A DNA stretch of 64,000 bases, taken from the NCBI GenBank assembly GCA_033239005.1, contig BSQZ01000029.1, forward strand, positions 1,303,501-1,367,500, in the 5' to 3' direction. A program made the position numbers and the translations under genes. Shown here piece after piece: positions 28,286 through 64,000 of the stretch. The notes under the pieces were generated by a model. That model worked only from the letters and a program-made list of their open reading frames with translations. It was not told the DNA's origin and made no database searches. The DNA comes from Lamellibrachia satsuma (taxonomy: Eukaryota > Annelida > Polychaeta > Sabellida > Siboglinidae). The first letter of the stretch is position 1. Each line of letters opens with the position of its first letter.

Positions 28286-28597
28286 GTACAACAGTTGATA
28301 GTGAAGGGTGACCTGCCGTGCTCGAAGGAGGAGGCAGCGACATTGGCTGGCATCCAACTGCACCTGGAGGAGACGTGGCCAGACACTGCCATGCAGGCAG
28401 AGCCGGACACTTGGGGTGACGTGTACAAGCCTCTCAGACCCATGCCAAACAAAACACAGATGATAAAGAAGGAGAAGCTTCGACCTGGTAAGATGGCTGG
28501 AAGAAGATGTAGTTGCTTAGACGCACAGAAGCTTGGACTGGCAGACTACCTGCCCCCCGCGTTCACCTTTAGTACGAAGATACTCAAGATGGTAGAG
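28286..28597 (+). CDS. PLCE1: PLCE1 exon 1 of those seen: FERM F2-like region
   Basis: The acceptor is CTTATTGCAG and the donor GAG|GTAAGG; 104 codons, phase 0 at both sides. [20 protein letters not shown] resembles the start of a FERM F2 lobe (a helix with EEA and LA, as in talin). Near the end LADYLPPAF resembles the talin DFLPKEY segment. An upstream exon must exist because the frame enters from a splice site without a Met. Confidence 0.9.
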
Positions 28598-31240
28598 GTA
28601 AGGAGCAAACTTTCTTCTCTCACCTCATAGCATAATAAGTATTAATTACCTTCTAGTGTTGTACCACTTACACTACCTTTGACCTATACATTTTCATTTG
28701 AACTTTTATTAAGAAGTTTCTTTCTAAGCAGCCAGCTTTTATTAACTGTATAAAATGTTAAGGTACTTTTAGAATATCATATATTATTTGTATTTGTTGT
28801 CCCAATGTTTTGCTTATATATGTACACAAGCGAAGGATAACATGAAGGATAACATAATGAACTTTATCATATCTTTAACCATTTATATGTACATAAACCA
28901 TTCCTACACCTGAATATGTTGGACTCATTAAAATATCATCTACAATAGAGAATATGTATGAACCACTTTGCTGCAAACGGAGTACTTGGATCAGTTTTTT
29001 ACTTGGTTCTGCCATAATCCGTAATCATTACTGTTTTGTTTCGCTGATCAGAAGCATTCATTTCAGACATGAGATTAATGTGAACGTTTCTCCTCATCTT
29101 GCCTTGTTTCAGGAGAAACAGAAGAAGCTGTGGCACACGCCATACTATGACAACGAGTTGAAGTTGAAGCAGCTGTACACCCGCATCTGTAGGAACTTGC
29201 CTGCCTACAACTGCAAGCTGTATCAGATGAAGCAACTCCTGCGCGAAAACAGCAGCAAGAAGGTCTCACATCTCCTTTATTTATCCTCCATCTTTTTTAG
29301 TGCTGTCACTCTCTTTACTCGCACTTCATCCATAGACTTATGGTGTCCTCTAGGAGTTCTACTAAGATCACTTCCTCTTAAAATATGTTAATGCCATGTT
29401 AAAATTAGTCATGGTTGTATTAACATTTCATAATGACTTATATGTAATGTGGTTAGCTGTTGGGTTAAAATTTTGCACATCAACGTTACACATTTCTTGC
29501 TACAGTCTTGTATCCTGGGGATCAACAGACTGGTGTTATATGTGTGATGGTCTTTCTTGTTGTAGTCTTGTATCCTGTGGATCAACAGACTGGTGTTATA
29601 TGTGTGATGGTCTTTCTTGCTGCAGTCTTGTATCCTGTGGATCAACAGACTGGTGTTATATGTGTGATGGTCTTTCTTGCTCCAGTCTTGTATCCTGTGG
29701 ATCAACAGACTGGTGTTATATGTGTGATGGTCTTTCTTGCTCCAGTCTTTTATCCTGGGGATCAACAGACTGGTGTTATACGTGTGATGGTCTATCTTGC
29801 TGCAGTCTTGTGTCCTTTGGATCAACAGACTGGTGTTATACGTGTGATGGTCTATCTTGCTGCAGTCTTGTATCCTGTCGATCAACGGACTGGTGTTATA
29901 TGTGTGATGGTCTTTCTTGCTGCAGTCTTGTATCTTGGGGATCAACAGTGAAAAGCTTGTCCTCCTCGACTTCAAGACAAAGACTCCACTGCGCACCTGC
30001 CCCATCCTGGACCTCCAGCAATGGAGCACAGGAAATGGCAAGGGGCACAGCGGGCTCGTATTGGAGTTCCGTGGCTCTAAACCATGGAACCTAGTAGCAC
30101 CCTCTGTTGATGACCTTAAGTCAGTGACCTCTGCACTGTGGGATGTGATGGACATCAGTGGGCGGTTCCTTGAGAGGACGCCTCTACACAGGGATGTCCT
30201 TAACTTTGGTGAGTGCAAATGAAATGTAGTAAGGTAGTGGTTAGCATATCCACCCCTTATACTGACTATTTAGGTTTCAAGTCCCAGATCAGCATTAAAT
30301 TTCTGCCAATAATAACGTCTATTCCCAATCTATTATGAAATTAGCTATATTTGTTGCATTAAATGTTACATTACGCATGAATGTTAAATGTCTAATTACA
30401 CAATAATAATGTGTGTGCTATGACAAACAAATTTGTCTATTTAAATTAATTAATCAAATTAAATATTCAGAGCACACATGCACACACATTATACACACAC
30501 ATACACGTACGCCCACATTTGTATGCACACATGCATGCACAGAAAGGCACACACACCATGCGCGCACGCATGCACACAAAATTTTCTTCATATGGATATT
30601 TGGTCCTATTTCCAGCCTGTCCCCTTGTTGTAGACTTCAGCCGCCGCCACCGGGCCATGAAATGTGTCATAGAGCTATGTACAGTGCACACAGCGGAGCT
30701 TGAACGGCTCCAGAACTTGCTCCACTTCCCAGAGGAGGTTGCCATGGCACTGGCAGACACAGAGTTTGAACTGTTCAACAGTGTCCCTGCAATGTTCTAT
30801 GTTCGACATGTGACACTTGACTTGTCACGGGCAGTTCTGACAACTCGCAAACCCAATGTACAGGATCTAATTCAACGCTTCCACGAGGTGGGTGACAACA
30901 CTGGGTGAAGACACGTGATTAGTCTCACAGTCGTCCTGGCTGAGCCATAGGTGTTATAGAACATATTTCTTATTTATATTCCATTTGTGCATAATCTAAT
31001 TTATAGTTAGCGTTTGTAATTATGTTTGCATATTTTACTATTGTTATTTTCACATTATTTCTTTGCAGCAGTAGACTATCATGTCGTCTGTGTATGCACA
31101 TATGTGCGTTTTAGACAAAGAAATGTTTGCATGCATGCAAGCATGCACACATGTGCACACTATGTGCTAATGTGCTGATAGTGTACAACTGCATGTGCCA
31201 GATCAAAGCATTGCTAAGTTTATTGAGTATCATATAATAG

Positions 31241-31321: not shown

Positions 31322-34300
31322 TAGATCAGCCATTGTGCCTTGAAGAGGAAGTGGTAGAAACAATGAACAAGACTAGTGACAGTTTGATAGGAGACACTGA
31401 CCAACTTGTCATGTGTTATCATATTTACAGTGGCTCCCCAGGCAGTGATGACCTCATAGCTATGGTCAAGATATTCCTTTCCTGTCATCAGTGTGTGACT
31501 AGGTTGCATATACCAAGGGTCAATTGTGTCTGTAATCTGAACACGTTGCAAATATTTGAAGGCCCAGCAATTCCAGTACACCAAGCTGCTGCGGTCATCT
31601 TGTCAATTTTATTATCTTTCCACAACATAAATATTGTGTGTTGTGTCTAGGTGAGCATGTGGATCACACACATCATAGTGACACAGTGACACACCTACTA
31701 CACATGATCTTATTGTGTCTAGGTGAGCATGTGGATCACACACATAGTGACACAGTGACACACCTACTACACATGATCTTGTTGTGTCTAGGTGAGTATG
31801 TGGATCACACACATCATAGTGACACAGTGACACACCTACTACACATGATCTTATTGTGTCTAGGTGAGCATGTGGATCACACACATCGTAGTGACACAGT
31901 GAGACACCTACTACACATGATCTTATTGTGTCTATGTGAGCATGTGGATCACACACATCATAGTGACACAGTGACACACCTACTACACATGATCTTATTG
32001 TGTCTAGGTGAGCATGTGGATCACACACATAGTGACACACCTACTACACATGATCTTGTTGTGTCTAGGTGAGCATGTGGATCACACACATCATAGTGAC
32101 ACAGTGACACACCTACTACACATGATTTTATTGTGTCTATGTGAGCATGTGGATCACACACATCATAGTGACACAGTGACACACCTACTACACATGATCT
32201 TATTGTGTCTAGGTGAGCATGTGGATCACACACATCATAGTGGATCACACACATCATAGTGACACACCTACTACACATGATCTTGTTGTGTCTAGGTGAG
32301 CACGTGGATAACACACATCATAGTGACACACCTACTACACATGATCTTGTTGTGTCTAGGTAAGCACGTGGATCACACACATCATAGTGACACAGCCGAC
32401 CCATGAAAGTCGCAAGGCTGTCCTCTCCTGTATACTGCGGGTCGCACAGACTTGCTGGAACATTGGCAACTTCAACGGCGCCATTGAGATCCTGGCTGGA
32501 CTCAAGTAAGGGAATTTATATACATATAAATAACACACATAAATAACATCATAATTTTCTGCAGTACCATACTGCTTCTTCTTGGTAGTCTCCTTCCCTT
32601 TTATACAGCCCATGAATTACAACAAGTTTCTGGTTGAAATAACTGTTTTATCTTGTTCTTCTGCCATATAAACTACAGTGAATGAATGGAAAGTCCCAGT
32701 CTCGTAGCACTTCCTTATCATCAATGATGTCATGTCAAAGCTTGATGATAAGCGCAGGAAAAATATGCATAATCGAGGCAGGCCGGTAGAACAGAGTATT
32801 ATTTGGAAGTATTAATTAATGGAATTCTAATGAATTTTCTGGTGTTGTGGATATGGAAATATACTACAAGATGTAATATAATATGATTTCAAGCAATCAT
32901 TGTTGTTATTCCCTTTAAGAAGCCCTTCTGATATGTTGATGTTGTAGGTCAGAAAAGCTTGAGCCATTCTGGCTGTCAATACGGGACGAGGACCTCTCTA
33001 TAATGAACTTCCTCTCTGATGCCCTCCTCTCACGGGAACCCACACCTGCGTACCGGGCTGCTATCTCACGGGCTCTCGCCATCCCAGGCTGCAAGGTTGT
33101 GCCTTTCTTTGGAGGATTCCTTCGGGACTTGCGGGCAATCTTCTCCATCGTGCCAAGTGTTGTGGTGCTTGCGTCAGAAGAGCCTGAACAGCTCCACGTA
33201 TGTCATTGTAGTGTCATTGTCGTCTCTCTATGATTAGTTTACAAACATCTAACAGTTTCGATCAGCCTCTTATCATTTTCAAATCAAATCAAATTTATTG
33301 TAACTCTTTACAATATATACAAATCAAATCAAGGTAAACCATATATGATAATGTAAAGAGAACAATAGGGGAAGAACATTATAGAATGTTATACTCCCTA
33401 GTATATATTTCAATACATATATCATAGTATTAAACACAAAAATAGCGTGCAGGTGTAGAAAACGAACAAATTGTAATAGTGATACATGTTATATATTGAC
33501 ATCATTGTGTAATATAAATTGCTTAAGTATACATTTGTAGTTTATTATTGAATAAGAAGTAAAGTTGAGTCTTGTGTTAAAATAATTCCAAATTATAGCA
33601 CCCTTAATTCTTACAGAACGAAGTCTTATTTCTAAAGTTGCCATGGATATGTGTATTTGTGTAGATTGTCTTGTATTGTAACTATGAACATCTTGATTAA
33701 GTTTAAACATATTACCAAAAATTTTTGGTAGAAGACCACTGTTGTATTTATACATACACATTTGTATTGAGTAGACATATAGTTGTCTAAACGTTAAGAT
33801 GTTTAGTAGTTTAAAGGTAGCTTTTGTATGAGTTGACATATTAGCTGATACGAGCATTCTCACCGCTTTCTTTTGAACCTTTATAATACTTGAACAATAT
33901 GAGTCAAATGCACCACCCCACACTTCAATACAATATGTGAAATGAGGGAATAGAAACGAGTAATATAAGGTGACCAGGCATGGTCTAGTTAAACATCTTT
34001 TGGCTTTGTTGATAATGCCTACCCCTTTAGAGATTTTACATTTAACTTTGTTAATATGTTCAGCCCAATTAAGTTTGTTATCACTAGTAACGCCAAGAAA
34101 TGTTGTAGAGGATACTTGTTTAGTTTAGTTTAGTTGAGGTAGTGTTATTGTAATACACATATTGACTTCTATTAGATAAATAACTTTTAATCCAGTCATT
34201 GTCTAAGCCACATATACCATAACATTGGAGTTTTTGACACAGTATCTCATGGTCAACAGTATCAAATGCTTTTAGATAAATCTAAGAACACCCCTAGCAC

Positions 34301-40300: not shown

Positions 40301-43300
40301 GCACGGTTCTTCTCAACAGTTCCGTAGGGGAATGGTTCCACACCACAGTCGGTGTATGGCAAGGTTGTCCTCTTTCCCCAACACTCTTCAACATCTTCCT
40401 CGAACGCAACGATGCCATAGCAGGAGATGAACAAGAACTGGCCAACATAGTGAAATGCCTGGACAAATCCTCTTCAGACTATGGGATGGAAATTAATGCA
40501 GAGAAAATGAAGCTCATGACTAACAACTCAAATGGCATACAAGAACAGATACTCGTCAATGGGAAAGAACTAGAAACTGTCGCTAACTTCAAATATCTCG
40601 GTGCAATGCTATCAGATAAAGGATCAAAATCAGAAATCCTTTCGAGAATTGCACAAACCTCAGCTGCAATGGCAAGACTAAAACCAATGTGAAAAAACAG
40701 TGGCATCACCCTGAAAAACAAAATAAGACTGATGCGTTAACTTGTCATATCGATCTTACTATACACTTGCGAGACATGGACCCTAACGGCAGAATTAAAA
40801 AGAAGAATACAAGCTTTGGAGATGAGAAGTTAGAGAAACATCTTGCGCATCTCGTACACAGAACATATTACCAACGAAGAAGTCAGAAAGATAATCGGAC
40901 AACATGAAGACATCCTGACCACAGTCAGAAGACGCAAACGAAGATGGTATGGACACGTCACAAGATCTACTGGCCTGGCAAAAACCATCCTGCAAGGCAC
41001 AGCGAGTGGAAAAGGTGGAAACAGATTTGTATGATTATCATCAGAGGTGCCCCAGTGACCACAGACGGTTACGGGATAGGCCAGTGTCAATAAAAACTGA
41101 CAATGTGATAACCATAATATTTATATACATCATTCATATCTAAAAATATATGTACATATATATATATCCATACACCAGATAAGCAGAATAACAATTATGA
41201 ATTACCCCCGTATGTATCTTGTTAGATTTACCTATATAAATAATATTTAAATCAAAGTCATATGTAGCATATATAATTATATATAGCCAAAAGTAAACTA
41301 TATATGCAATTACTGGTAAAAACCGTTAATGTGTTTACAAGTTAAAATGTTTCTTCACATTCTGGAGAATGACCATGACACCTACTGGATTAGCTATGTC
41401 CACTGCTTGGCTGTCTCGAACACTTAAGATCGATTATGCACTGATGATTTTTAACAATAAAAAATCCACTTCTAAATATCTTATTATTTTCTAATTATTT
41501 TAAATATTATTTTAAAAGTGTCTGGTGCTGCTCTACAAATAATGTGTTTCATGTGAAAAAAATTTTGGAATATTTCCATTATCTATTTCGTGCCACACAG
41601 AGCAAATGAAATATTACTTCGTTGTTTTTAATAAATATTGATATGACCCCTTTGTGTGTTGACTCGCCTTCATGATTCAGATACAATTGTAGTATAATTA
41701 GTGCTCGTTCTGTATACGCGCCATATTGAGAATGAACGAAAACACGACAAACGCTGCTGTTCGTAGCAATTCCGATCGGTAAAACTGCAAACACAATATT
41801 TGACAATCTTTTGTGCCATTTGGGCAGCTAAAGTGATGTGGTATGATATAATGAACGGCTTGGAATAGATAAAGTGAGGTAAGAGTGAAACACAAAGCCG
41901 TACTAATAAGGGCCCTGTTTATGATGATGTAGTATGATATAATGAACGGCTTGGAATAGATAAAGTGAGGTAAGAGTGAAACACAAAGCCGTACTAATAA
42001 GGGCCCTGTTTATGATGATGTAGTATGATATAATGAACGGCTTGGAATAGATAAAGTGAGGTAAGAGTGAAACACAAAGCCGTACTAATAAGGGCCCTGT
42101 TTATGATGATGTAGTATGATATAATGAACGGCTTGGAATAGATAAAGCGAGGTAAGAGTGAAACACAAAGCCGTACTAATAAGGGCCCTGTTTATGATGA
42201 TGTAGTATGATATAATGAACGGCTTGGAATAGATAAAGCGAGGTAAGAGTGAAACACAAAGCCGTACTAATAAGGGCCCTGTTTATGATGATGTAGTATG
42301 ATATAATGAACGGCTTGGAATAGATAAAGTGAGGTAAGAGTGAAACACAAAGCCGTACTAATAAGGGCCCTGTTTATGATGATGTAGTATGATATAATGA
42401 ACGGCTTGGAATAGATAAAGTGAGGTAAGAGTGAAACACAAAGCCGTACTAATAAGGGCCCTGTTTATGATGATGTAGTATGATATAATGAACGGCTTGG
42501 AATAGATAAAGTGAGGTAAGAGTGAAACACAAAGCCGTACTAATAAGGGCCCTGTTTATGATGATGTAGTATGATATAATGAACGGCTTGGAATAGATAA
42601 AGTGAGGTAAGAGTGAAACACAAAGCCGTACTAATAAGGGCCCTGTTTATGATGATGTAGTATGATATAATGAACGGCTTGGAATAGATAAAGCGAGGTA
42701 AGAGTGAAACACAAAGCCGTACTAATAAGGGCCCTGTTTATGATGATGTAGTATGATATAATGAACGGCTTGGAATAGATAAAGTGAGGTAAGAGTGAAA
42801 CACAAAGCCGTACTAATAAGGGCCCTGTTTATGATGATGTAGTATGATATAATGAACGGCTTGGAATAGATAAAGTGAGGTAAGAGTGAAACACAAAGCC
42901 GTACTAATAAGGGCCCTGTTTATGATGATGTAGTATGATATAATGAACGGCTTGGAATAGATAAAGCGAGGTAAGAGTGAAACACAAAGCCGTACTAATA
43001 AGGGCCCTGTTTATGATGATGTAGTATGATATAATGAACGGCTTGGAATAGATAAAGTGAGGTAAGAGTGAAACACAAAGCCGTACTAATAAGGGCCCTG
43101 TTTATGATGATGTAGTATGATATAATGAACGGCTTGGAATAGATAAAGTGAGGTAAGAGTGAAACACAAAGCTGTACTAATAAGGGCCCTGTTTATGCAA
43201 GATTACCAAAATTTCAGCGCATGTTCCTTACATTGGGAGTCCTTATGGCGAGAGGCCACTGCATGTGTCATCACCTGTATGTGTCACCACCTGTACATGT

Positions 43301-49300: not shown

Positions 49301-52300
49301 ATTTTATCTTTGCAGTTTACATGAACACTTTGTTGCCATTATCCACTCGTCTTTCAGAAACATACCTCTTTGCATCTGCATAAGCGTTTCCAGCAAGCTT
49401 TTTCAACCAGTCTCTCATAAATGTCTTCATCAACCACAGTTTTTTTATGCCTTAGATCTGGGAGTTTAGACCTCATTTCTCGTCGAAACATGTGATAGAA
49501 TGGTGTTGCTTCCATTGTTTCTTGTGGAATCGACCTGTAAGCTGTCAGAAACTTTGACATTTCGATTTGCCAGTCTTCATTCTCAATTTGTGCAACACGA
49601 ATTACCTTCATCAATGTCTTGCCTTTCGCCATTTGCTTGCAGCCACAACAGTCTTTTTCCAATGTTCAACACCATACTCTTCCAGAAACTCTGTTGATAC
49701 AAACTAAGGATCATTGTCCATTCCTTGCAAATGTGGCTCTCCAAACCTAGCAAACATCAGCCTCAGTGTTTCAATTACCTTGGCATTTATGGTTGACCTT
49801 AGAATCACTACTTCGTAGTAGTGACTGTAGTAGTCCACTACCACAAGAGTGTTCTCTCCAGTACGTCTTCTCTAGTATGTCAGCACTACAGTCTTGCCAT
49901 GGTCCACTTGGTGGTAAGATTCGAGCCTCAACACTGCAGTCTTGCCATGGTCCACTTGGTAGTAAGACTCAAGTCTCAGCACTGCAGTCTTACCATGGTC
50001 CACTTGGTGGTAAGACTCAAGCCTCAGCACTGCAGTCTTGCCATGGTCCACTTGGTTGTAAGACTCAAGTCTCAGCACTGCAGTCTTGCCATGGTCCACT
50101 TGGTGGTACGACTCAAGCCTCAGCACTGCAATATTGCCATGGTCTACTTGGTGGTATGACTCAAGCATCAGCACTGCAGTCTTGCCATGGTCCACTTTGT
50201 GGTAAGACTCGAGCCTCAGCACTGCAGTCCTGTCATGGTCCACTTGGTGGTAAGACTTGAGCCTCAGCACTGCAGTCTTGCCATGGTCCACTTGGTGGTA
50301 AGACTCGAGCCTCAGCACTGCAGTCTTGCCATGGTCCACTTGGTGCTATGACTCGAGCCTCAGCAGTGCAGTTTTGCCAGGTTGAAAGCTCACAGGTTGA
50401 AATGCACACAGGTCCACACTAAGGCAAGCACCTCCTCTGTTTGGTTGTCCTGCTGTTCAACATATGTCAGCTGTCTTGATGCATATGAGATCACTCACCA
50501 CTACTCTTGCAGTTGCATCAGAACTGCACCAAGACCGACTGGTGATGCATCATCCACAACTCTTGTTCTGCTGTACAGGTTGAAGTATGCAAGAGTATCT
50601 ACACATGTGATCATTTTCTTCAACTCTCGGAATGCAGCTTCTTGTTCTGCACCCCATTGAAATATGACGTTCTTGCGTGTTAACTGCTGAATAGGTTCTG
50701 CCACTGACGACATGTCTGGTAGGAACTCATGAATGATCATGCTTCTGCAGCATTCTTTATCTTCCACTGAATAGGTTCTGCCACTGACAACATGTCTGGT
50801 AGGAACTCATGAATGATCATGCTTCTGCAGCATTCTTTATCTTCAACTGAATAGGTTCTGCCACTGAAAAACATGTCTGGAAGGAACTCATGAATGATCA
50901 TGCCTCTGCAGCATTCTTTATCTTCAACTGCCGAAATTTTCTCCTCAGTTCTAGGCCAAAGAATGTGATCTAGGACATGTGAAACTCACACTTCTGACCA
51001 TTCAGAGTTAGTCAAACTTCCCTCAATCGCTGCAGCACTACGAAAAGCCGTCATCAATATCTGTACAATCCACAATGTCTCACAAATGTTGTGATATAAC
51101 GACTTTCCTCATCGATAAGAATCTGATGAAATACCCATTTCAGATCTAGTTTGCTGAACACTGTGCTTTCATTCAAATCACAAAGCAGTTCTTCTGTGGT
51201 TGGGATACGTTGATGTTCTCTCATGATAACTTTGTTTGCCCACCGCATGTCTACACATATGCGCACATCATCTCCATTTCACTTAGGTACGGCAACTAGC
51301 AGGGAGATCCACTCAGTTGATCCTTCCGGTACCTCTAAAATGATTCCATTCTCAAGAAGCTTGTCTAGCTTCTGGTTGACCTTGTCTCGCAAGCCAAATG
51401 GAATTCATCACACTGGTTGACTTCATTTCACTGATTTGTTGATATTCGGCTTGAGCTAATAGTCTTTAAAAAAAAACAACACCACTGAACAAATTACTGT
51501 AATTCTCCCTAATTTCTGTTTCATCATGTTCACCAATCACTTGGTTAGCACTACCCTCAGCATAGACTTTGTTACATAGGCAGTATACTACAAGACTTAG
51601 TGATATACAGGTATTTGTTATAAGAGAATCTTTATGTTGTTAGTGACATGCAGTCACAATGGAAGGCAGGAATATGTACATAAATGTAAAGTTCATAGAC
51701 TAGATATAGACTGAAAGAAGGGGCAAAGACGTGAAAACTTTAAGAAAATGGATAGGAAGCTAAACGAACCTAAGGCTGTGTTGTCACCCTGCTGTGTTAT
51801 TGTTGTCATACTGCTGTGTTATTGTTGTCACACTGCTGTGCTGTTGTCATCACCATGCTGTGTTATTGTCACACTGCTGTGTTGTTGTCATCACCATGCT
51901 GTGTTGTTGTTGTCATTGTCACCCTGCTGTGTTATTGTTGTCACACTGCTGTGTTGTTGTCCTCACTATGCTGTGTTGTTGTTGTCATTGTCACACTGCT
52001 GTGTTGTTGTCATTGTCACCCTGCTGTGTTGTTGTCACCCTGCTGTGTTGTTATTACATTGCTGTGGTGTTGTTGCCCCAGGACTGATGACACGGAACAG
52101 TGTGCTGGACCTGCCATCAGCCGGCACCCATAAGAAGATGTGTGACGTTGTTGCGTCGGCCAGTGTGCTGTGTAACTCCGCAGGCCTCGAGTCACTGCGC
52201 TGCAAGTGTCTGGGCGTGGAGGAGCTGAGGGAGTTCCTGGTCACCTACCAGGAGGAGACACACACGGAGTGGCAGATCATGGAACTTATACAGGTGAGTC

Positions 52301-55300
52301 TCATGTCATACAGGCAGGTCTCATGTCATACAGGTGGGTGTCAAGTCATACAGGTGGGTGTCATTTTATACAGATGGGTCTCATGTTATACAGGTGGGTC
52401 TCATGTCATATAGATTGGTTTCATGTCATACAGGTGGGTCTCATGTCATACAGTAGGGTCTCAAGTCATATAGGTGCGTCTCATGTCATACAGATCAGTC
52501 TCATGTCATACAGGTAGGTGTCAAATCTTAAAAGATGGGTCTCATGTCATACAGGTGGGTCTAGTGTCATACAGGGGAGTCTCATGTCATGCAGGTGTGT
52601 CTCATGTCATACAGGCTGGTCTCATGTCATATAAGTGGGCCTCATGTCAAACAGGTGGGTCTCATGTGATACAGGTGGGTGTCAAGTCATACAGGTGGGT
52701 GTCATGTTATACAGGTGGGTCTCATGTTGTACAGGTGGGTCTCTTGTCATATAGATGGGTCTAGTGTCATACAGGGTCTCAAGTCATATAGGTGCGTCTC
52801 ATGTCATACAGATCAGTCTCATGTCATACAGGTAGGTGTCAAATCTTAAAAGATGGGTCTCATGTCATACAGGTGGGTCTAGTGTCATACAGGGGAGTCT
52901 CATGTCATGCAGGTGTGTCTCATGTCATACAGGCTGGTCTCATGTCATATAAGTGGGCCTCATGTCAAACAGGTGGGTCTCATGTGATACAGGTGGGTGT
53001 CAAGTCATACAGGTGGGTGTCATGTTATACAGGTGGGTCTCATGTTGTACAGGTGGGTCTCTTGTCATATAGATGGGTCTAGTGTCATACAGGGGAGTCT
53101 CATGTCATACAGGCTGGTCTCATGTCATATAAGTGGGCCTCATGTTATACAGGTGGGTCTCATGTTGTACAGGTGGGTCTCATGTTGTACAGGTGGGTCT
53201 CATGTCATATAGATGGGTCTAGTGTCATACAGGGGAGTCTCATGCCATACAGGCTGGTCTCATGTCATATAGGTGGGCCTCATGTCAAACATGTGGGTCT
53301 CATGTCATATAGGTGGGTGTCATGTCAAACAGGTGGGTCTCACGTCAAACAGGTGGGTCTCATGTCAAACAGGTGGGTCTCATGTCAAACAGGTGGGTCT
53401 CATGTCAAACAGGTGGGTCTCACGTCAAACAGGTGGGTCTCATGTCAAACAGGTGGGTCTCATGTCAAACAGGTGGGTCTCATGTCAAACAGGTGGGTCT
53501 CATGTCAAACAGGTGGGTCTCACGTCAAACAGGTGGGTCTCACGTCAAACAGGTGGGTCTCATGTCAAACAGGTGGGTCTCATGTCAAACAGGTGGGTCT
53601 CATGTCAAACAGGTGGGTCTCACGTCAAACAGGTGGGTCTCATGTCAAACAGGTGGGTCTCATGTCAAACAGGTGGGTCTCATGCTTCTACTGTTTAGGG
53701 CAGTCATCAATTGCTGCTTGTGTATAAGTTGTTCAGCTTTGTTCTTTCTCACAAGGCTGCAGGCACAAACAGTTGGGTGCAGTATGTTCTAACTTGTCAC
53801 AAAGAATTATGTTGAGGGAGATGAGAGGGTTAATTTGTTAGAAACACTTTCCATAAAAAATAAAAGTGATATCCTGTTTGGTTAATAAATCTGCAGTTAC
53901 ACAAGGGGGCAGCCGTGGCCTAGTGGTTAAGGTGTTGGACTCTAAATTCAAGGGTTGTGAGTTCAAGACCCACACTGGGCACGGTTCGTGTTCGAAGTTT
54001 TTCGTTTACCCTACTTTGCCTCAGTCTACTCAGCTGCAAATGAGTACAAACACTGTTTGGAAGGTACCTGCGATGGACTAGTGTCCCGTCCAGGAGAGTC
54101 AGTATAACTGCACTCTAAGTTGCTTTGCACTACAGAAACCAGGTTTAAGCACTGGCCATATAAGCCTTCATGGCTTCCTAAGGCGTAATGCCTGGGGGAT
54201 GACTTTACCTTACTTTACCTACACAAGGACATACTGTCTTAATGTGGGTTCATATTTGGGTGGATTTAGAACTGTGGTTAATGTCAGTAAGTTATAATAC
54301 TGCTTAGAAATGAACATGACAAGAATCTACCTGTGTACATACCATTGTGTTTACTGAAATTAACAGATTAAAAACCTTTCTTCACACGTTTACATCACTG
54401 CTGTGGTACGTACTTGTCATATTACCACTAATGTTTGAATATTTATACGTTTTTCAGCGACATGAAACTGACGCCACGATGCGAGCCCTATGCAAGCTGT
54501 CATTTGAAGGCTTTGCGAGATTCCTGATGGACAAAGACAATTACGCGTTTGTTCCGGAGACAGTCAGACAGCCTGATGAAGTAAAGAACAGTTAACATCA
54601 CTTTAAAATTGCTTTTATCTAAATATTTATAGTAATAGTAGTAATGCATATTATTTCTGTACCCCGAATTTAACCATGTCCTAACACAATCTGTAGTGTG
54701 ATTGCTGTGGGAGAAATAATACAAAGTTAAACATGTTTTATCACAATCTGTAGTGTGGTTGTTGTGGGAGAAATAATACAAAGTTAAACATGTTTTATCA
54801 CAATCTGTAGTGTGGTTGTTGTGGGATAAATAATACAAAGTTAAACATGTTTTATCACAATCTGTAGTGTGGTTGTTGTGGGAGAAATAATACAAAGTTA
54901 AACATGTTTTATCACAATCTGTAGTGTGGTTGTTGTGGGAGAAATAATACAAAGTTAAACATGTCCTAACACAATCTGTAGTGTGGTTGCTGTGGGAGAA
55001 ATAATACAAAGTTAAACATGTTTTATCACAATCTGTAGTGTGGTTGCTGTGGGAGAAATAATACAAAGTTAAACATGTTTTATCACAATCTGTAGTGTGT
55101 TTGCTGTGGGAGAAATAATACAAAGTTAAACATGTTTTATCACAATCTGTAGTGTGTTTGCTGTGGGAGAAATAATACAAAGTTAAACATGTTTTATCAC
55201 AATCTGTAGTGTGGTTGCTGTGGGAGAAATAATACAAAGTTAAACATGTTTTATCACAATCTGTAGTGTGGTTGCTGTGGGAGAAATAATACAAAGTTAA

Positions 55301-55878: not shown

Positions 55879-58511
55879 ATGCCTGTGCATGTGTGCATGC
55901 ATGTGCCTGTGTGTGTGTTTGTATGTGAGTGCAACACACATGTATGTACAATTGTAAACACACATGTATGTGTATAAATACTACATAATTATGTCTATAT
56001 ATGCTGTATATACATTTGTACATGTATACATACAACTGTTGTACACATGCTTATCTGTTTATATATTTATTATGCTTATATATATTTTATTTTCATGGTT
56101 GCATGTATATTTTGTATTTGCCTATTAACAGGCTGGTCGCAGATATATGGCACTTTATCAATTTTAGTAATAATGACAATAATACTTCAGGTGCTGCGGA
56201 CGGGTTGTCGGTGTGTAGAGTTGGATTGCTGGGACGGTGATGACACCTATCCTGTCATCACACATGGAGGAGCCATCAGAAGCCTCCCAGTTCATGTTGT
56301 CTCCAAGGTCCCTTTCCGGGTAAGTGACATGAAGGAAATCTTGCAGTCCCAGAACGTGGTATGTTGGATAATAACATTAGCTGAACGCTAACCATCATTG
56401 GCTTTAATATGAAATACCATTTGAAAAATGAAGGTTTCATGAGCGACACGTAAACATTTGTATGTATATGAGATGTTGTATAAACATTTTAAACACAACT
56501 TCTAAGTAACTTGGTGGTATGACATCACTTACTTATTTTCTTTGTGTCCAGGTCTTCAGGTTTACCTTATTTTTGCTCTGCCCCTTTTTCCTTCACCCAT
56601 CTTCTTCCAAGGGTATGTTTCAATTCAGAAATTTCTCATCAAAAATATTCAATTTACGTAGAGCAAGATTAGTGTTTGATGATATATCAACTCATGTCCT
56701 GGATGAATGTCACAGTGGCAGTTGTCACTGTTAATTTCATTTGATGTGTTGTTGTCATTGAATTCCAGCCCGTGGTTGAAGCCATCAACCGCAGTGCCTT
56801 TGAGACGTCACCCTACCCTGTCATTCTGTCCCTTGAGAATCACTGCAGCATAAGTCAGCAGGAGAAGATGGCTGACATCTTTGTGGTGAGGCGTCATTTG
56901 ATTCTTCATTTTGTTGTATGTAAATGAATAATGTATGTAGACATTTGGCGTTCAGTGGGATAACTTGGCAAGTCACATTCTGTAAGTTCTAAGAAAAACA
57001 CAAAAACCATCACAGACAAGAACTCTTTTGGAATTGTCATAACAAGCAACAGGCTACTAACTTGATATCCTATTACATCAATTTCCCATTACTCTACCAT
57101 GGTGATAAATAGTACAATATATATTTTGGGGGTTTAAATAGTTTTAATTCACCTACTAGGTATTTTGAATATGCATTGGCTAGATTCCGACGAAGCAGTT
57201 TGTCCCCTAGTATGGTGTTGGTGTTCATGGGGTTTTCTGCGCAGACAGGCTTCCTGTTTCTTCATCAGTATTCTTGGCTTATGTTTATATAGGTTAGCGA
57301 AATGGCCCCACCTGTTTGTAATTAAATTTGTGTATTGGTGGTGGAATGTCTGTATCCTTTGCATCACATGTTCATGACGACTTCTTGATGTATATATTTT
57401 ATCGTCATGCTTGTAGGAATGTGGGATCTGAGAAGCTTGCCGGATGGGGCTGTACATGTGTTCAGTTCCTGTCTGGTTTGCTTTGAGGAACTCACATTCC
57501 TGTTAATGTTCTTCCCAAAGTGGTTGTGTGATAAGCAGTCCGCTTTGCAATAAAAACGTGTTTTATTTGGCCCGTTTCAGTTCTCTGCTACATCGGACTT
57601 GTGTTTGTTATTGCATAAAAAGCAATTTTGTAGCTATTATACAATATTACCCCACAGAGATGTTGCACAAGACTAAGTAAATCGAAAACCTAAATAATTT
57701 CAGTGTTTTTAATGTGATTTGTTAGGTTCTTTCATTGGACAGCAGATGTTTGTGCATGTGTAGAATGTGAAAGTATCTGCCTCTGTGTTACTACTGTACT
57801 GTGACACCACCACACCATGACATGTGCTACTACTGTACTGTGACAACAACACACCATGACAACTGTGTTACTACTGTACTGTAACACCACCACCACACCA
57901 TGACATGTGTTACTACTGTACTGTGACACCACCACACCTTGACAACTGTGTTACTACTGTACTGTGACACCACCACACCATGACAACTGTGTTACTACTG
58001 TACTGTGACACCACCACACCATGACAACTGTGTTACTACTGTACTGTGACACCACCACACCATGACAACTGTGTTACTACTGTACTGTGACACCACCACA
58101 CCATGACAGCTGCATTCGTTGTAGGAGGTGTTTGGAGACAAGTTAGTGCGAGACTACCTCTTTGAGACAGACGTCACTGATAATTTGGTGCTGCCTTCTC
58201 CTGACCAACTCAAGTACCGCATCCTCATAAAGAACAAGAAGATTGCTTCCAACCACATGCAGCTTCCTTCAAGGCCGGTAGGTTCCTAGGTTTCATTCAA
58301 GGCCGGTAGGTACCAGTCTTCATTCAAGGCCGGTAGGTACCAGTCTTCATTCACAGGCCAAGTGTCTGTGGCTACAGATTAGAGGCAACTGTTCTTTTGG
58401 GGGTTTACCTGACTCATGTTACTGTTGTTCCACAGCTACAGACTCAGGCAAGCAATGGCACGTTTGATGATGATGAGGAAGATGAGGAAGAAGACTTTGA
58501 AGATGACGATG
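28286..58511 (+). CDS. PLCE1: Phospholipase C epsilon ortholog, 16 exons, both ends missing
   Basis: PLC epsilon cleaves PIP2 into IP3 and diacylglycerol at membranes and, through its CDC25 domain, activates small GTPases such as Rap1. Sixteen GT/AG exons with consistent phases give about 1,206 codons. Order: talin-like FERM F2/F3 (exons 1-3), RasGEF (4-7), linker plus PH (8), EF-hand lobes (9-11), catalytic X half (12-15) and acidic X-Y linker (15-16). [16 protein letters not shown] and [10 protein letters not shown] hold the first catalytic His and the acidic Ca2+ ligands. [20 protein letters not shown] and [17 protein letters not shown] are specific to the epsilon family. The Y, C2 and two RA domains must lie beyond 64000. 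Start codon and F1 lobe were not found. Four exons have junctions embedded in tandem arrays. The intronic LINE relic at 33283-36480 and the Gypsy relic lie antisense; the RT fragment at 40124 lies sense. Confidence 0.96.
29113..29262 (+). CDS. PLCE1: PLCE1 exon 2: end of F2, start of F3
   Basis: The acceptor is CTTGTTTCAG and the donor AAG|GTCTCA, a weak donor chosen because it alone keeps phase. It encodes 50 codons. [17 protein letters not shown] matches the F2/F3 boundary of talin-type FERM domains, where an aromatic-Gly segment opens the PTB-like F3 lobe. Confidence 0.88.
29506..29935 (+). repeat. 60-bp array that repeats the exon 3 acceptor, 8 acceptor copies
   Basis: Each 60-bp unit contains CTTTCTTGCTGCAGTCTTGT followed by ATCCTGTGGATCAACAG. 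This is the polypyrimidine tract, the AG and the first 23 bases of PLCE1 exon 3. Pyrimidine-AG ends fall at 29505, 29565, 29625, 29685, 29745, 29805, 29865 and 29925; only the last joins the real exon. From any earlier AG the exon frame meets TGA after 13 codons. Confidence 0.93.
29926..30208 (+). CDS. PLCE1: PLCE1 exon 3: FERM F3 (PTB/PH-like) lobe
   Basis: Entry phase 0, exit phase 1, donor [30 protein letters not shown] and [11 protein letters not shown] follow the strand pattern of a FERM F3 lobe (compare the LLGIT and IKRW segments of talin). It ends with a helix, [13 protein letters not shown]. The acceptor is the last of eight tandem copies. Confidence 0.9.
30230..30300 (+). mobile_element. 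SINE head fragment in intron 3
   Basis: AAGGTAGTGGTTAGCATATC and, later, GGTTTCAAGTCCC match A-box and B-box positions of a tRNA-derived SINE. The rest of the element is absent. A (CA)-rich patch follows at 30470-30580. Confidence 0.5.
30616..30887 (+). CDS. PLCE1: PLCE1 exon 4: start of RasGEF domain
   Basis: Acceptor CTATTTCCAG, donor GAG|GTGGGT; entry phase 1, exit phase 0. It begins [20 protein letters not shown] and contains [18 protein letters not shown], then ends LIQRFHE, which leads into the CDC25 core motif on exon 5. Confidence 0.93.
31245..31315. repeat. (TA)n microsatellite in intron 4
   Basis: An uninterrupted TA run of about 35 units. Confidence 0.96.
31645..32395 (+). repeat. 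About 72-bp array that repeats the exon 5 acceptor and its first 36 coding bases, 11 copies
   Basis: Each unit has TTGTGTCTAG followed by GTGAGCATGTGGATCACACA and CATCATAGTGACACAG. The second part encodes [12 protein letters not shown], the true start of exon 5 in the RasGEF domain ([12 protein letters not shown] in the real copy). Copies begin at 31651, 31723, 31792, 31864, 31936, 32008, 32069, 32141, 32213, 32296 and 32360. Spacing is 61-83 bp, mostly 72. Two copies (31936, 32141) have lost the AG (TAT). Where CAGTGA follows, the frame stops directly. Confidence 0.93.
32360..32505 (+). CDS. PLCE1: PLCE1 exon 5: RasGEF core
   Basis: Acceptor TTGTGTCTAG, donor CTCAA|GTAAGG, exit phase 2. It encodes [12 protein letters not shown] then [20 protein letters not shown] and [17 protein letters not shown], the most conserved segment of CDC25-type exchange factors. 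I placed the start at the last array copy because the exon 4 frame (FHE) continues directly into VSTWIT. Confidence 0.94.
32948..33197 (+). CDS. PLCE1: PLCE1 exon 6: RasGEF
   Basis: Acceptor TGTTGTAG, donor CAC|GTATGT. It encodes [15 protein letters not shown] and then [20 protein letters not shown]. The latter corresponds to the PF-G-L-D segment of CDC25 domains that helps form the GTPase-facing helical hairpin. Confidence 0.95.
33283..36480 (-). mobile_element. Degenerate LINE with PHD finger, endonuclease and RT remnants
   Basis: Antisense in intron 6. Reading 5' to 3': a PHD-like zinc finger (36474-36187, [20 protein letters not shown] with later His-Thr-Lys-Cys and Trp-His-Cys-Ile-Lys-Cys); endonuclease start ([26 protein letters not shown]); [22 protein letters not shown] fragment [21 protein letters not shown]-terminal region [24 protein letters not shown] at 33923-33489. 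The 3' end reads AATAAATTTGATTTGATTTG on the minus strand, a short-repeat tail as in CR1/L2 relatives. The RT block with the catalytic Asp pair is missing. Frames are broken at many points. Confidence 0.85.
36885..37193. repeat. 26-bp minisatellite derived from a SINE body, about 12 copies
   Basis: The unit is TGATGGTAGTAACAGGTCTG followed by CCAGGG. The sequence AACAAGTCTGCCAAGGGGTG in the SINE at 48216 is the likely ancestor of this unit. A SINE tail follows the array directly. Confidence 0.88.
37194..37256 (+). mobile_element. SINE 3' tail
   Basis: GTAAAGTGCTTTGAGCAGTC then CCAAGGACTGGATACTG and AATATAAG match the tails near 3500 and 48430. Confidence 0.8.
37322..37518 (+). CDS. PLCE1: PLCE1 exon 7: end of RasGEF
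   Basis: Acceptor GTTGTTGCAG, donor AAGAG|GTAGGA, exit phase 2. It encodes [20 protein letters not shown] followed by helical [20 protein letters not shown], closing the catalytic domain. Confidence 0.94.
37994..38747 (+). CDS. PLCE1: PLCE1 exon 8: linker and PH domain
   Basis: The largest exon, 754 bp. An acidic linker ([16 protein letters not shown]) is followed by a PH-like domain. [20 protein letters not shown] and [11 protein letters not shown] match the end of PLC PH domains, and [15 protein letters not shown] matches the PH to EF-hand joint. Acceptor TGGTTTCAG, donor AAG|GTAGGA. Confidence 0.94.
38795..38975. mobile_element. MITE with TA duplication, 181 bp
   Basis: The left end is CAGTGGACTCTACCTAACAG AATCA. 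The right end read on the other strand is CAGTGTACTCTGCTAGTAAA CAGAATCA. TA flanks both sides. These features fit a nonautonomous Tc1/mariner/pogo-type element. It lies 47 bp after exon 8. Confidence 0.8.
38978..39508. other. Intron 8 sequence, nothing recognised
   Basis: AT-rich. No exon or named element was seen. Confidence 0.4.
40124..41034 (+). pseudogene. LINE reverse transcriptase fragment lacking the catalytic block
   Basis: Frames on the + strand read [20 protein letters not shown], then [20 protein letters not shown], then [36 protein letters not shown] and [20 protein letters not shown]. This is the order found in a common invertebrate non-LTR RT. The stretch expected to hold FADD, between FLER and AGDEQ, is absent, and stops and frame shifts occur near 40328, 40690 and 40740. 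It sits inside the inverted-repeat transposon. Confidence 0.88.
41830..43194. repeat. 91-bp tandem array in one transposon arm, 15 copies
   Basis: AATGAACGGCTTGGAATAGA recurs every 91 bp, from 41850 to 43124 exactly. The copies are nearly identical; the main variable site is AAAGTGAGG versus AAAGCGAGG. The left arm has one inverted copy (about 39664-39750). Confidence 0.97.
43260..43512. repeat. 16-bp minisatellite, about 15 copies
   Basis: Units are variants of TGTGTCATCACCTGTA, with CACCTGTACATGTGCC subtypes. Confidence 0.88.
43668..44105. repeat. 47-bp minisatellite, about 9 copies
   Basis: The unit is GATGCACTAGCTAGCACTGC, then TATCACACTGCTACCAGCTG, then TGCTACA. It is highly homogeneous (spacing exactly 47, for example 43711 to 43758). 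Confidence 0.96.
44106..45120. other. Intron 8 sequence, nothing recognised
   Basis: No exon or element was seen between the 47-bp array and the exon 9 acceptor. Confidence 0.4.
45121..45460 (+). CDS. PLCE1: PLCE1 exon 9: EF-hand region
   Basis: Acceptor TTTTCTCCTCAG, donor ACTG|GTGAGC, exit phase 1. [20 protein letters not shown] followed by FEQFA is a hallmark of the PLC epsilon EF-hand region. No canonical Ca2+-binding loop is seen, as usual for PLC EF-hands. Confidence 0.95.
45461..46425. other. Intron 9, first part, nothing recognised
   Basis: AT-rich unique sequence. A TTAAATTAAATCAATTTACA-type duplication appears further down, at about 47385-47430, after the 32-bp array. Confidence 0.4.
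46430..47310. repeat. 32-bp minisatellite, about 27 copies
   Basis: The unit is CCACCACACATTCCACTGTG followed by TCTATCCCCATG. Variant order (CCAAGC, CCATGC, TACATG, TCATGC) repeats in blocks of several hundred bases, showing past block duplication. The three plus frames stay open (up to 424 codons) because no stop exists in the unit. Confidence 0.95.
47311..47935. other. Intron 9 sequence, nothing recognised
   Basis: AT-rich, no exon seen. Confidence 0.4.
47940..48215. repeat. 29-bp minisatellite, about 10 copies
   Basis: The unit is GTAAACATGCTGTAACAGCC followed by TTAGATAGG. It abuts a SINE at 48216. Confidence 0.92.
48216..48480 (+). mobile_element. tRNA-derived SINE, near full length
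   Basis: The head GGCAACTGTTGCAGAGTTTA and the B-box-like CAGGGTTCAAGTCC are followed by a body (AACAAGTCTGCCAAGGGGTG) and the tail GTAAAGCACTTTGAGCAGTC CTAATGACTAGATACTGTG. It serves as the reference for the fragments near 3300-3556 and 37194. Confidence 0.8.
48481..48774. other. Intron 9 sequence, nothing recognised
   Basis: A small GTGTGTGTATATATATG microsatellite is present. No exon was seen. Confidence 0.4.
48775..48905. repeat. 42-bp repeat, 3 copies
   Basis: The unit is TAGACTTAGTTACATAGGGC, then TGGCTATACACCACAGTCAA, then TA. A related TAGACTTTGTTACATAGGC occurs near 51563 on the other side of the Gypsy relic, so it may derive from its LTR or flank. Confidence 0.88.
49875..50360. 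repeat. 48-bp minisatellite inside the Gypsy relic, about 10 copies
   Basis: The unit is CACTGCAGTCTTGCCATGGT, then CCACTTGGTGGTAAGACTCA, then AGCCTCAG. It separates RNase H from integrase in the dead element, so it grew inside pol. Confidence 0.92.
50690..50935. repeat. 81-bp repeat, 3 copies, inside the Gypsy RNase H region
   Basis: TGAATAGGTTCTGCCACTGA and the following bases to TTTATCTTCAAC are repeated. The unit encodes [18 protein letters not shown] on the minus strand, three times. Confidence 0.9.
51431..51776. other. Intron 9 sequence, nothing recognised
   Basis: Possible remnants of the Gypsy flank (TAGACTTTGTTACATAGGC near 51563). No exon was seen. Confidence 0.4.
51777..52078. 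repeat. CTGCTGTGTTGTTGTCA minisatellite, about 15 copies, abutting the exon 10 acceptor
   Basis: Imperfect units of 17-27 bp built from CTGCTGTGTTGTTGTCACC. The last unit runs straight into TGTTGTTGCCCCAG, the exon 10 acceptor, so the array supplies its T-rich tract. Confidence 0.9.
52082..52293 (+). CDS. PLCE1: PLCE1 exon 10: EF-hand lobe
   Basis: Acceptor TTGTTGCCCCAG, donor ATACAG|GTGAGT; entry phase 1, exit phase 0. It encodes [14 protein letters not shown] and [16 protein letters not shown], which match the human-like order before the SFEGFARFL segment. Confidence 0.94.
52284..53690 (+). repeat. 20-bp array that repeats the exon 10 donor junction, about 70 copies
   Basis: The unit is GTGGGTCTCATGTCATACAG. 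Exon 10 ends TTATACAG and its intron begins GTGAGTCTCATGTCATACAG, so the first intron unit starts at the real donor and each unit recreates ACAG|GTGGGT. Later units are ATGTCAAACAG|GTGGGT. A 318-bp block (52474-52791) is duplicated at 52792-53082 practically unchanged. Confidence 0.94.
53907..54219 (+). mobile_element. tRNA-derived SINE with target duplication
   Basis: The A-box-like CCGTGGCCTAGTGGTTAAGG, the B-box-like GAGTTCAAGACCC, a body containing TTTGCCTCAGTCTACTCAGC, and a tail ending in CTTTACCTTACTTTACC. TACACAAGG flanks both sides (53898-53906 and 54220-54228), a clean target duplication. Confidence 0.9.
54458..54580 (+). CDS. PLCE1: PLCE1 exon 11: EF-hand end
   Basis: Acceptor TACGTTTTTCAG, donor [27 protein letters not shown] is almost invariant in PLC epsilon proteins just before the X domain. 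Confidence 0.95.
54660..55610. repeat. 57-bp minisatellite in intron 11, about 16 copies
   Basis: The unit is GTGTGGTTGCTGTGGGAGAA, then ATAATACAAAGTTAAACATG, then TTTTATCACAATCTGTA. The period is 19 codons, which leaves a 400-codon minus frame open; I regard it as an artefact. Confidence 0.95.
55679..55783 (+). CDS. PLCE1: PLCE1 exon 12: start of catalytic X domain
   Basis: Acceptor TTGTGTAACAG, donor [25 protein letters not shown] holds the first catalytic His and the Asn that binds Ca2+. [11 protein letters not shown] follows as in PLC epsilon (ESSVELYSQ in vertebrates, as I recall the family). Confidence 0.97.
55838..55930. repeat. (GTGC)n/(GTGT) microsatellite
   Basis: GTGCGTGCGTGCGTGCGTGC run followed by TGCATGTGTGCATG. 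Alternating purine-pyrimidine. Confidence 0.95.
56191..56319 (+). CDS. PLCE1: PLCE1 exon 13: X domain, acidic ligands and second His
   Basis: Acceptor AATACTTCAG, donor [27 protein letters not shown] supplies the Glu and Asp that bind Ca2+. YPVITHG supplies the second catalytic His. After HG, 8 to 9 extra residues (about GAIRSLPV) precede HVVSKVPFR; family members usually go from HGHTLT-like directly to SKIPFK. Confidence 0.95.
56769..56885 (+). CDS. PLCE1: PLCE1 exon 14: X domain
   Basis: Acceptor TTGAATTCCAG, donor GTG|GTGAGG. It encodes [14 protein letters not shown] and [20 protein letters not shown]. The Glu in SLENHC is another Ca2+ ligand position. Confidence 0.96.
56886..57775. other. 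Intron 14, first part
   Basis: A minus frame at 57149-57457 (102 codons; [20 protein letters not shown]) has a protein-like composition and may be a mobile-element remnant, but I do not recognise it. Nothing else was seen. Confidence 0.35.
57777..58112. repeat. 41-bp minisatellite abutting the exon 15 acceptor, about 8 copies
   Basis: The unit is GTGTTACTACTGTACTGTGA, then CACCACCACACCATGACAAC, then T. The array ends 12 bp before the acceptor CATTCGTTGTAG. Confidence 0.93.
58125..58277 (+). CDS. PLCE1: PLCE1 exon 15: end of X domain
   Basis: Acceptor TTCGTTGTAG, donor [28 protein letters not shown] and [17 protein letters not shown] match the end of the PLC epsilon X domain; the KNKK lysines are the usual phosphoinositide-contacting basic cluster. 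Confidence 0.96.
58268..58340 (+). repeat. 27-bp repeat of the exon 15 donor junction, 3 copies
   Basis: TTCAAGGCCGGTAGGT occurs at 58268 (the real exon end), 58296 and 58323. Each copy keeps the exon end plus the GTAGGT donor. Confidence 0.9.
58436..58511 (+). CDS. PLCE1: PLCE1 exon 16: acidic X-Y linker
   Basis: Acceptor TTGTTCCACAG, donor GATG|GTAAGA, exit phase 1. It encodes [10 protein letters not shown] then [16 protein letters not shown]. The acidic X-Y linker of PLC enzymes is autoinhibitory by repulsion from the membrane. It is the last exon in the window. Confidence 0.92.
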
Positions 58512-60959: not shown

Positions 60960-62216
60960 CTACTTATAACCCGCCCTCCTGATATATGTGTCAACCTTGT
61001 TTTTAAACATATTCACGCTGCTAGCAGTTACACAATCTGTAGACAGTTTGTTCCATTCATTTACTGTCCTCTGTGAGAACGAGTGCTTCCTGATGTCCAA
61101 TCTACATTGATCCTTTACTAATTTTACCTCATGTCCTCTAGTTCTGCTATCCTTCTTGAGTGAGAAAAACATATTTCTATCAATATTTTCATACCCATTC
61201 AATATCTTAAAAACTTCAATCTGATCTCCTCTTAACCTCCTTGTCTCTAGAGTTGTTAAACCACATTCTTTCAGGCGTTCTTCATAACTAAGGTCTCTAA
61301 GTTCTGGAATCATTTTAGTTGCTCTCCTTTGTATGCGTTCAAGCGTATCTATATCCTTCTTACGATATGGTCTCCATGCTTGTATACAGTATTCTAAATG
61401 AGGTCTAACTATTGCTTTATAAAGAGGTATAATTAACTTTTTTCCCTTGTATGTTATGTTTCTTCTAATCAATCCAAGAATTTGATTACCCTTTGAAGCT
61501 GCAATACCACACTGCTCTGAAACTTTCATATCAGCGCTTATTGTAACTCCTAAGTCCTTTTCTTTTACAGTAGTACCCAGAACAGTATCTCCCATTTTAT
61601 AGTTTACATTCAAGTTCCCATGTCCTGTATGTAGGCATTTACATTTCCCAAAATTGAACAGCATCTGCCATTTCTCAGACCATTTAACTAATCTGTCTAG
61701 ATCGTTTTGTAAATGTTGTTTATCACCATCAGTATTAACCTTTCTAAACAGTTTTGTGTCATCTGCAAATTTCATTATGTCACTTGTTATACTGTCGTCC
61801 AAGTCATTGATATAAATTAAGAATAATATAGGTCCTAATACTGATCCTTGAGGTACCCCACTCAAAACCGATTTCCAATTTGAAACTTCTCCATCTACTA
61901 CAACTCGTTGTCTTCTGTCAGTCAGCCATTGTTCTATCCAATCAGTTATGCTATCCCCGATACCATGTGCTTTTAATTTAAGTAGTAATCTTTGATGTGG
62001 CACTTTGTCAAAAGCTTTCTGAAAATCTAAGTAGATAATATCTACTGGCGATCCCACGTCTATCCACTTAGTGATTTCTTCCAAAAAACATAACATATTT
62101 GTTAAGCATGACCTCGCTTTAAGGAATCCATGTTGAGATGAATTTAATAATTTATGCTTAACGAGGAAGTCCACCATATGGTCTTTAATTAACCTTTCTA
62201 ATAATTTACAAATCAC
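60960..62216 (-). pseudogene. LINE ORF2, RT C-terminal part (418 codons)
   Basis: It contains DFQKAFDKVPHQ, SGVPQGSVLGPILF, the intact MKFADDTKLF and the whole thumb region. The natural frame is cut upstream by the stop near 62249. Relative to the first copy a few residues differ (for example LKFADD there, MKFADD here). Confidence 0.92.
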
Positions 62217-62246
62217 TGACGTTAAACTTACTGGTCTGTAATTCTC

Positions 62247-63267
62247 TTACTTATTTCTCGAACCCTTTTTAAATAATGGTATGATGTTTGCTTCTTTCCA
62301 TTCAAACAGAACAACTCCCTCTTTTAATGACAAGTTGAATACTCTTGCAAGTGGTATACTGATTTGATCTACTGTTTCCATTAGTAATTTTGGAGGAATC
62401 CCATCCACTCCCGGTGATTTGTTATCCTTCATTGCCTTTATTTTCTTAGCTACCAATTCTGGAGTTACAACTAACGGTCCTAAATAGTCAGATTTAGCCC
62501 CCTGAAATTTAGCATCAGCAACTGGTAATGAACTAATATCTTCTTTGGTAAACATTGAACTGAAGTAACCATTTAGGTCTTCCGCCATTAAAAACCCCTG
62601 TGATATTATTTTTCCAGCACTGTCTTCTAGAGGTCCAACCTTGTACGTTTTGTTTACTCCTGACATATGCATAAAAACTCTTGCTGTCATTTTTTATGTT
62701 ACATGCCAGTTTTTGCTCATAGCTTCTTTTAGATTGTCTGATTTCAGTTGTAGCTGCATTAAGTGCCTCTTTGTATTTTGCATAGTCTTCTTCCTTTCTG
62801 GTACGCCTATAAACCCTCCACATAGTTTGTTTTAGCATTATTTTTCTAATTGCCTCTTTTGACAAGTGTTTCTTTCTACACCGTTTTCCTTGTTTTCGGA
62901 AGGGAACAAATTTATCAATGATACTCTTAATTTCATATTTTAGAATATTCCAACATTCAATTGCGGTCTTATTCATCAGCATGTTATTCCAATCTAGCTG
63001 TGCTAAGCATTTTCTCATATCTTTGTAGTTACCTTTGTGGAAGTTTCTCTTGTACGTTTTCTTATTTTTACTTTCTGATTTTACATTGATGTCAAAATGT
63101 ATTTGATTATGGTCACTATTACCCAATGGTTCAAATATTTTTACATTGTCCACTAATTCTTTTTGTGATGACAAAACTATATCTAATACATTTTCTCCCC
63201 TGGTTGGTTCTAGTACGTGCTGAGTAAGAAAGCTATCCTGGATTAAACAGAAATTGTTGATCCTCAA
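62247..63267 (-). pseudogene. LINE ORF2, linker and RT N-terminal part in two overlapping frames
   Basis: Frames 62247-62690 (MKDNKSPGVDGIPPKLL) and 62533-63267 (GNSDHNQIHFD) overlap because a few bases are missing near 62640 compared with the first copy (GTCTTGTACGTTTTG there, TTGTACGTTTTG here). Confidence 0.9.
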
Positions 63268-63826: not shown

Positions 63827-64000
63827 TTCTAGTTTAAAGAATGTTTACTTCCAAAAATATTTGTCATTGTACCCAAGTCGCTATCTACTGCTGCTGAAAG
63901 TTTGTCCGCGAATACTGCCGCCCCCTTTCCACTTAAATGAAGCCCATCCTTCATGTACATATCAGCCCTCCCAACAAAACTTCCCCATAAATCCACAAAT

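Follow-up and report, generated by a model that had tools for sequence, protein, structure and literature searches.

How does a transcript come to be spliced at the right acceptor when that acceptor stands last in a row of near-identical copies? The question is raised by exon 5 of a gene on the + strand of the window (the whole 64,000-nt stretch of DNA analysed here), where a minisatellite covers the acceptor and the start of the exon. A sequence-only reading had named the gene PLCE1 and had proposed that the RasGEF core of its protein hangs on the choice of the last near-identical acceptor.

Judged by its predicted protein, the gene is PLC-epsilon-like, in line with that name: a RasGEF domain (Pfam match covering exon 5, E 2.6e-8) is followed by PI-PLC-X (E 1.1e-9 and 1.5e-8, in two frames), and of the relatives (at least 52 proteins among the matches listed, with 7997 candidates scored) many bear the name phosphodiesterase epsilon-1. 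Twenty exons, including four beyond the window, were placed by homology, reading frame and splice signals, and additional pieces of the gene lie at 82086 and 93058 (window-based numbering) without drawn bounds. Exon numbers are relative to the part of the gene that was mapped, exon 5 being the fifth exon of that part. A tree of 15 protein sequences (one fish, no lancelet) groups the window protein with gastropods (support 0.946). The exons before the RasGEF domain (28286-28597 and 29113-30208) have a weak FERM_M match below the cut-off (E 0.015); FERM_M is a precomputed domain in several PLC-epsilon relatives. The PLC X box (56191-56319) has a lineage-specific insertion relative to YHGHTLTTKIxFK of the relatives. 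The features at the junction in question are:

30634..30887, + strand: exon 4, donor CGAG|GTGGGT, phase 0 at its end; an alternative start at 30616 leaves the frame unchanged
31641..32395, + strand: 72-nt minisatellite over the exon 5 acceptor, TCTAG or TCTAT followed by GTRAGY, 11 copies
32360..32505, + strand: exon 5, RasGEF core, 146 nt, opening with GTAAGC; its own donor CAA|GTAAGG is weak

The array was delimited by Tandem Repeats Finder (TRF) at 31641-32395 (period 72, 10.6 copies, 87% matches), and a motif scan gave 11 copies with a spacing of 61-83 nt, whose first exon-like bases are 31651, 31723, 31792, 31864, 31936, 32008, 32069, 32141, 32213, 32296 and 32360. The shared coding stretch measures 36 nt, and the last copy differs from the consensus unit at 2 positions. 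At the level of sequence, the array observed at exon 5 is thereby confirmed, with the 11 tandem copies of the acceptor and of the first 36 coding bases that had been counted before. An AG is present in 9/11 copies (eight of the ten upstream copies and the real one), and copies 5 and 8 have TAT instead; the earlier count of nine or ten AG-keeping copies holds for nine, and ten is not reached. The shared segment runs directly into TGA in 7/10 upstream copies (1-5, 7 and 8), as had been stated for most of them, and reading stays open in copies 6, 9 and 10.

The start of exon 5 at 32360 is supported by homologous proteins. In a 15-row alignment with the consensus EVSSWITHxIxTQPTHEDRK, S335 is invariant and V334 nearly so, and the best tblastn piece for exon 5 begins at 32360. 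Because this exon start is conserved and exon 4 ends in phase 0, the unit carries exon sequence, and the exon start as drawn and the building of the array on the intron 4/exon 5 junction, both claimed earlier, agree with the homologues. An unrelated satellite, which the sequence-only reading had already dismissed, is ruled out by the match of the unit to the conserved exon start together with a DNA search in which the array was compared with the whole genome (735-Mb assembly, 279 contigs, very common words skipped) and matched a single locus. The 26-nt tail of the unit was tried as decayed exon 5 and rejected, since 31% of 5000 shuffles scored as well or better in local alignment to the next 40 exon nt; for its local alignment to the upstream intron the figure was 86% of 3000 shuffles. 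That repeat assembly inflated or collapsed the copy number is very improbable: tandem arrays in general assemble poorly, but these copies differ in substitutions and indels, the contig measures 7.27 Mb, and comparable arrays recur at other places in the genome.

Local acceptor quality cannot decide on the last copy, since copies 3, 7 and 10 match it at every one of the 22 nt up to and including the AG; this part of the earlier interpretation stands. RNA structure hiding the upstream copies was not evident in four folded stretches (z-scores -0.35, -1.37, -0.24 and 0.03), nor did the predicted accessibility of the array RNA set the last copy apart. Copies 10 and 11 lie 64 nt from each other and are hardly distinguished by exon size alone. 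Exon context and re-splicing remain as accounts for the choice of the last copy.

Exon context is the basis of an explanation in which the exon-proximal site is taken directly, with help from exon sequences and from pairing to the exon 5 donor, while the upstream copies are never used and the AG|GT form is a by-product of Val-Ser codons. We give it a nearly even chance. The identity of the local acceptors, the lack of any distinction of the last copy by RNA folding, and the mere 64 nt that a start at copy 10 would add to the exon all count against it; the lancelet data discussed below, which suggest regular splicing, speak for it. It also gains from other arrays in the same gene:

29493..29948, + strand: 60-nt array over the exon 3 acceptor (exon starts at 29926), 8 copies, AG in 8/8; strongest unit donor -3.7
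52082-52293, + strand: exon 10, whose last 6 nt contain the start of a 20-nt array
52288..53684, + strand: 20-nt array from the exon 10 end, 69.9 copies by TRF; donor CAG|GTGAGT or GTGGGT
58263..58359, + strand: 27-nt array over the exon 15 donor (exon ends at 58277), 3.5 copies by TRF; CCG|GTAGGT three times including the real one
outside the window: exon 18 acceptor array, 7 TTAG sites including the real one
73889-76172 in window-based numbering, outside the window: exon 18 donor array (L002), 48 copies by TRF; 29 occurrences of AGGTAAGA
76566-77020 in window-based numbering, outside the window: exon 19 donor array (L003), 12.1 copies by TRF; 8 occurrences of CATGTAAGT

At exon 3 all eight acceptors are intact and no strong donor accompanies them, and the arrays of exons 10 and 15 are donor arrays, so that at those junctions direct choice of the exon-proximal site would be required in this gene anyway. 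The donor array of exon 10 has 41 GT sites at -9 kcal/mol or lower (see below), the real donor counted in. CATGTAAGTCACTTCTCAA occurs in the donor arrays of both exon 18 and exon 19, whose units (48 and 38 nt) are otherwise unlike; it looks as though part of one array had been seeded by the other.

The array could also be regulatory, with frequent use of upstream acceptors yielding early-stop transcripts by which the RasGEF form is lowered or tuned. The eight intact upstream acceptors and the early TGA in seven of ten copies fit such a role, but any unconstrained intron sequence yields early stops, the donor-like sequences described next would remove such products, and no test in this analysis shows regulation; we regard it as improbable.

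The boundary of the unit reads TCTAG|GTGAGC, with GTGAGT in copy 3 and GTAAGC in the last copy, and in all nine AG-keeping copies the AG is directly followed by GTRAGY. Conserved Val-Ser codons (GTRAGY) at the start of the exon make the duplicated acceptor donor-like as well. Pairing with the U1 5' end, for which the sequence used was not one taken from this animal, gave -9.4 to -10.1 kcal/mol for the nine AG-keeping copies and -4.4 for copies 5 and 8. The donor of exon 4 itself, at -9.5 kcal/mol, is about equal to the AG-keeping copies, and on the + strand of the window 1.6% of 4484 GT sites are equally strong, array copies counted in. Among 15 listed exon donors -9.5 is reached by those of exons 1 (-10.1), 4 (-9.5), 12 (-11.0) and 13 (-10.9), and beyond these 15 the donor of exon 10 has -11.7; at -9.5 the AG-keeping copies equal or exceed 12/15 listed donors, exon 13 being counted before its correction to -10.9. 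Splicing to an upstream AG would regenerate the donor GAG|GTGAGC (-9.7). Each AG-keeping boundary is thus a candidate dual-specific or recursive splice site, and between these candidate sites lie intron-like units of 61-83 nt and zero-length exons. Since a donor-like site follows each kept AG, the choice of acceptor need not be irrevocable, and the protein need not rest on a single choice of the last copy. The first interpretation is incomplete in this respect, and also in that arrays of this kind are known from lancelets and that other junctions of the gene carry them; as a whole it is partly supported.

The best overall explanation, which we consider likely, is a junction-spanning minisatellite that is removed directly or via re-splicing. 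The intron 4/exon 5 junction would have been duplicated in tandem, giving a minisatellite of the "mirage" kind described from lancelets. Upstream of the last copy, intron 4 would then contain eight candidate dual-specific (ratchet) sites, the intron-like units and zero-length exons lying between. Exon 4 could reach the last AG in one step, or it could first be spliced to an upstream AG and then re-spliced from GAG|GTGAGC. Both routes would yield an identical mRNA, and for this reason expansion of the array would be tolerated; a mis-splice to an upstream copy could, in principle, leave no mark once re-spliced. As plain arithmetic, ignoring minimum intron size, eight upstream AG|GT points allow up to 256 routes to one product. 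The sequence itself establishes the anatomy, the conserved exon start and the like quality of local acceptor and donor in the intact copies. The mature mRNA is very probably mostly normal; a contribution of re-splicing is a tentative proposal, somewhat doubtful on present evidence.

Several observations bear on this contribution. The Val-Ser codons suffice to produce the AG|GT form, which requires no function. AGGT at -9 or lower occurs in 3/48 array units in sense and 1/48 in antisense orientation, the sense form being not commoner than in a simple control. Single sites at -9 or lower number 73 sense and 10 antisense between 28286 and 58511, with 64/73 inside three arrays, and arrays without a visible acceptor role hold many strong donor-like sites (15 in 41834-43197 and 41 in 52288-53684), so that decoys seem to be tolerated anyway. 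Units of 61-83 nt may fall below the minimum intron of the animal, which would count against re-splicing. Exon 5 itself looks like an RS-exon, its regenerated donor GAG|GTAAGC (-9.6) comparing with -5.0 for its own donor; skipping of exon 5 means the loss of 146 nt and a frameshift. In human cells exon junction complexes are reported to repress regenerated donors and RS-exon skipping (PMC6224609, in part), and such repression would act equally against the ratchet. The array at 41834-43197 (91-nt unit, 15.0 copies, 99% matches) has a strong sense GAG|GTAAGA in each copy; by its reading frames the unit resembles sequence near 39.6 kb and may be of mobile-element origin.

Whether junctions are preferred sites of array formation depends on the null model. 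In the region 28000-79500 arrays span 7/40 mapped junctions, 33 arrays covering 29% of it, and two further arrays, upstream of exons 10 and 15, stop in the intron no more than 40 nt short of the junction. The whole window contains 48 non-overlapping arrays (period at least 10), which account for 15947/64000 bases, compared with 6.9% in 30 Cpn60/TCP1 loci. Free random placement predicted 6.9/30 junctions where 3 were seen (window-only count, before exon 10 was placed). With exon intrusion restricted to 40 nt, a limit fixed post hoc after intrusions had been seen to be 3-36 nt, four junctions were hit versus 0.84 expected in 28000-58700 (P 0.007) and seven versus 0.92 in 28000-79500, where 0/2000 trials reached 7. 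Limits of 20, 40 and 60 nt gave means of 0.48, 0.96 and 1.26 (0/1000 trials reached 7), limits of 80 and 100 nt gave 1.73 and 2.01 (P 0.002 each), and 150 nt gave 2.84 (P 0.03); the junction excess weakens with a looser intrusion limit. Among 28 Cpn60/TCP1 exons elsewhere in the genome two junction arrays were found:

Cpn60/TCP1 locus L035: 55-nt acceptor duplication, 1.9 copies
Cpn60/TCP1 locus L038: 67-nt donor array, 3 copies

Loci were available for 30/49 matches, and the sample comprised 28/30 of these (L014 and L015 were dropped as long single-frame matches); some loci overlap, and exon ends were approximated by match ends. The two arrays compare with 1.02, 1.36 and 1.87 expected at limits of 40, 60 and 100 nt (P 0.26 to 0.57), and this sample therefore shows no junction excess. 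We claim that junction arrays recur in more than one gene, not that junctions are a proven hot spot. A further-reaching version of the re-splicing explanation, in which intron 4 would be a tandem ratchet, a wrong acceptor choice being undone at its eight AG|GTGAGC points (about 0.7 kb in all) so that array growth forgives itself, and in which the junctions of this gene would be preferred birthplaces of minisatellites, is unlikely as a whole. Elsewhere in the genome, myosin-head matches on contigs C18, C36 and C5 include several exon matches inside open frames of 1370-1819 codons, which are common to separate exon matches on one contig; the myosin introns are perhaps filled by stop-free arrays. 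A LINE-like reverse transcriptase on the minus strand of the window (60963-63844) has many relatives at 97-99% identity in ENA contigs (among the best 120 of 7917 matches), which suggests a young, high-copy element.

By the features examined the array resembles a mirage, its repeat unit crossing the exon-intron boundary with 36 exon nt and the acceptor, and by motif it resembles ratchet points, a strong donor-like sequence lying immediately 3' of the acceptor in the nine AG-keeping copies. Lancelet mirage minisatellites (Adh3, the globins BflGb6 and BflGb9, troponin C and PGBD5 repeats) are reported to leave regular splicing undisturbed (PMC3087553 and PMC3902484, both in part). Another mark of the kind is length instability between haplotypes or individuals; the present array comes from a single assembly with one matched locus. 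In contrast to these, acceptor and donor-like site coincide here (AG|GTRAGY), several junctions of one gene are affected, and the protein joins gastropods in a small tree without lancelets. No mirages outside lancelets were found in the literature searched, which covered a minority of the subscription journals. The exon 5 array may be described as a mirage whose boundary takes the dual-specific form, core AGGT being present at the unit boundaries in 9/11 copies. Human UBC and VCX3A arrays likewise have tandem units with core AGGT at unit spacing, and the tandem AGGT sites of UBC can act as 5' and 3' sites (PMC10809524, in part). The units of UBC are coding and may stay or leave without a change of frame, a property the units here do not have; 7/10 of the upstream units stop in frame and must therefore leave.

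Recursive splicing in Drosophila, where ratchet points are AG|GT pairs (PMC8605326, in part), and in human RS-exons shares the adjoining acceptor and donor (PMC8605326 and PMC6224609, both in part) with the candidate sites described here, which would also have the regenerated donor after the first step and zero-nucleotide splicing in common with it. Drosophila and human recursive points are mostly single and in long introns, whereas here about 0.7 kb contains eight upstream candidates, and intron 4 (1472 nt from exon coordinates) is not a long intron of the kind typical of Drosophila ratchet points. As in the intron gain of potato RdRp from AGGT-bearing segments (PMC4974935, in part), splice signals are supplied by tandem duplication; unlike there, an existing intron is lengthened, and no new interruption of coding sequence was seen.

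This locus is a natural test of spliceosome choice among near-identical sites, because one transcript combines acceptor arrays with donors (exon 5) and without them (exon 3) as well as donor arrays that range from 3 to about 70 copies. Should errors turn out to be erased by re-splicing at exon 5 and not at exon 3, that difference would explain the tolerance of expansions at AG|GT junctions and show a way in which new introns may arise. Mirages are more widespread than stated in the papers that we found, provided that the animal is not a lancelet.
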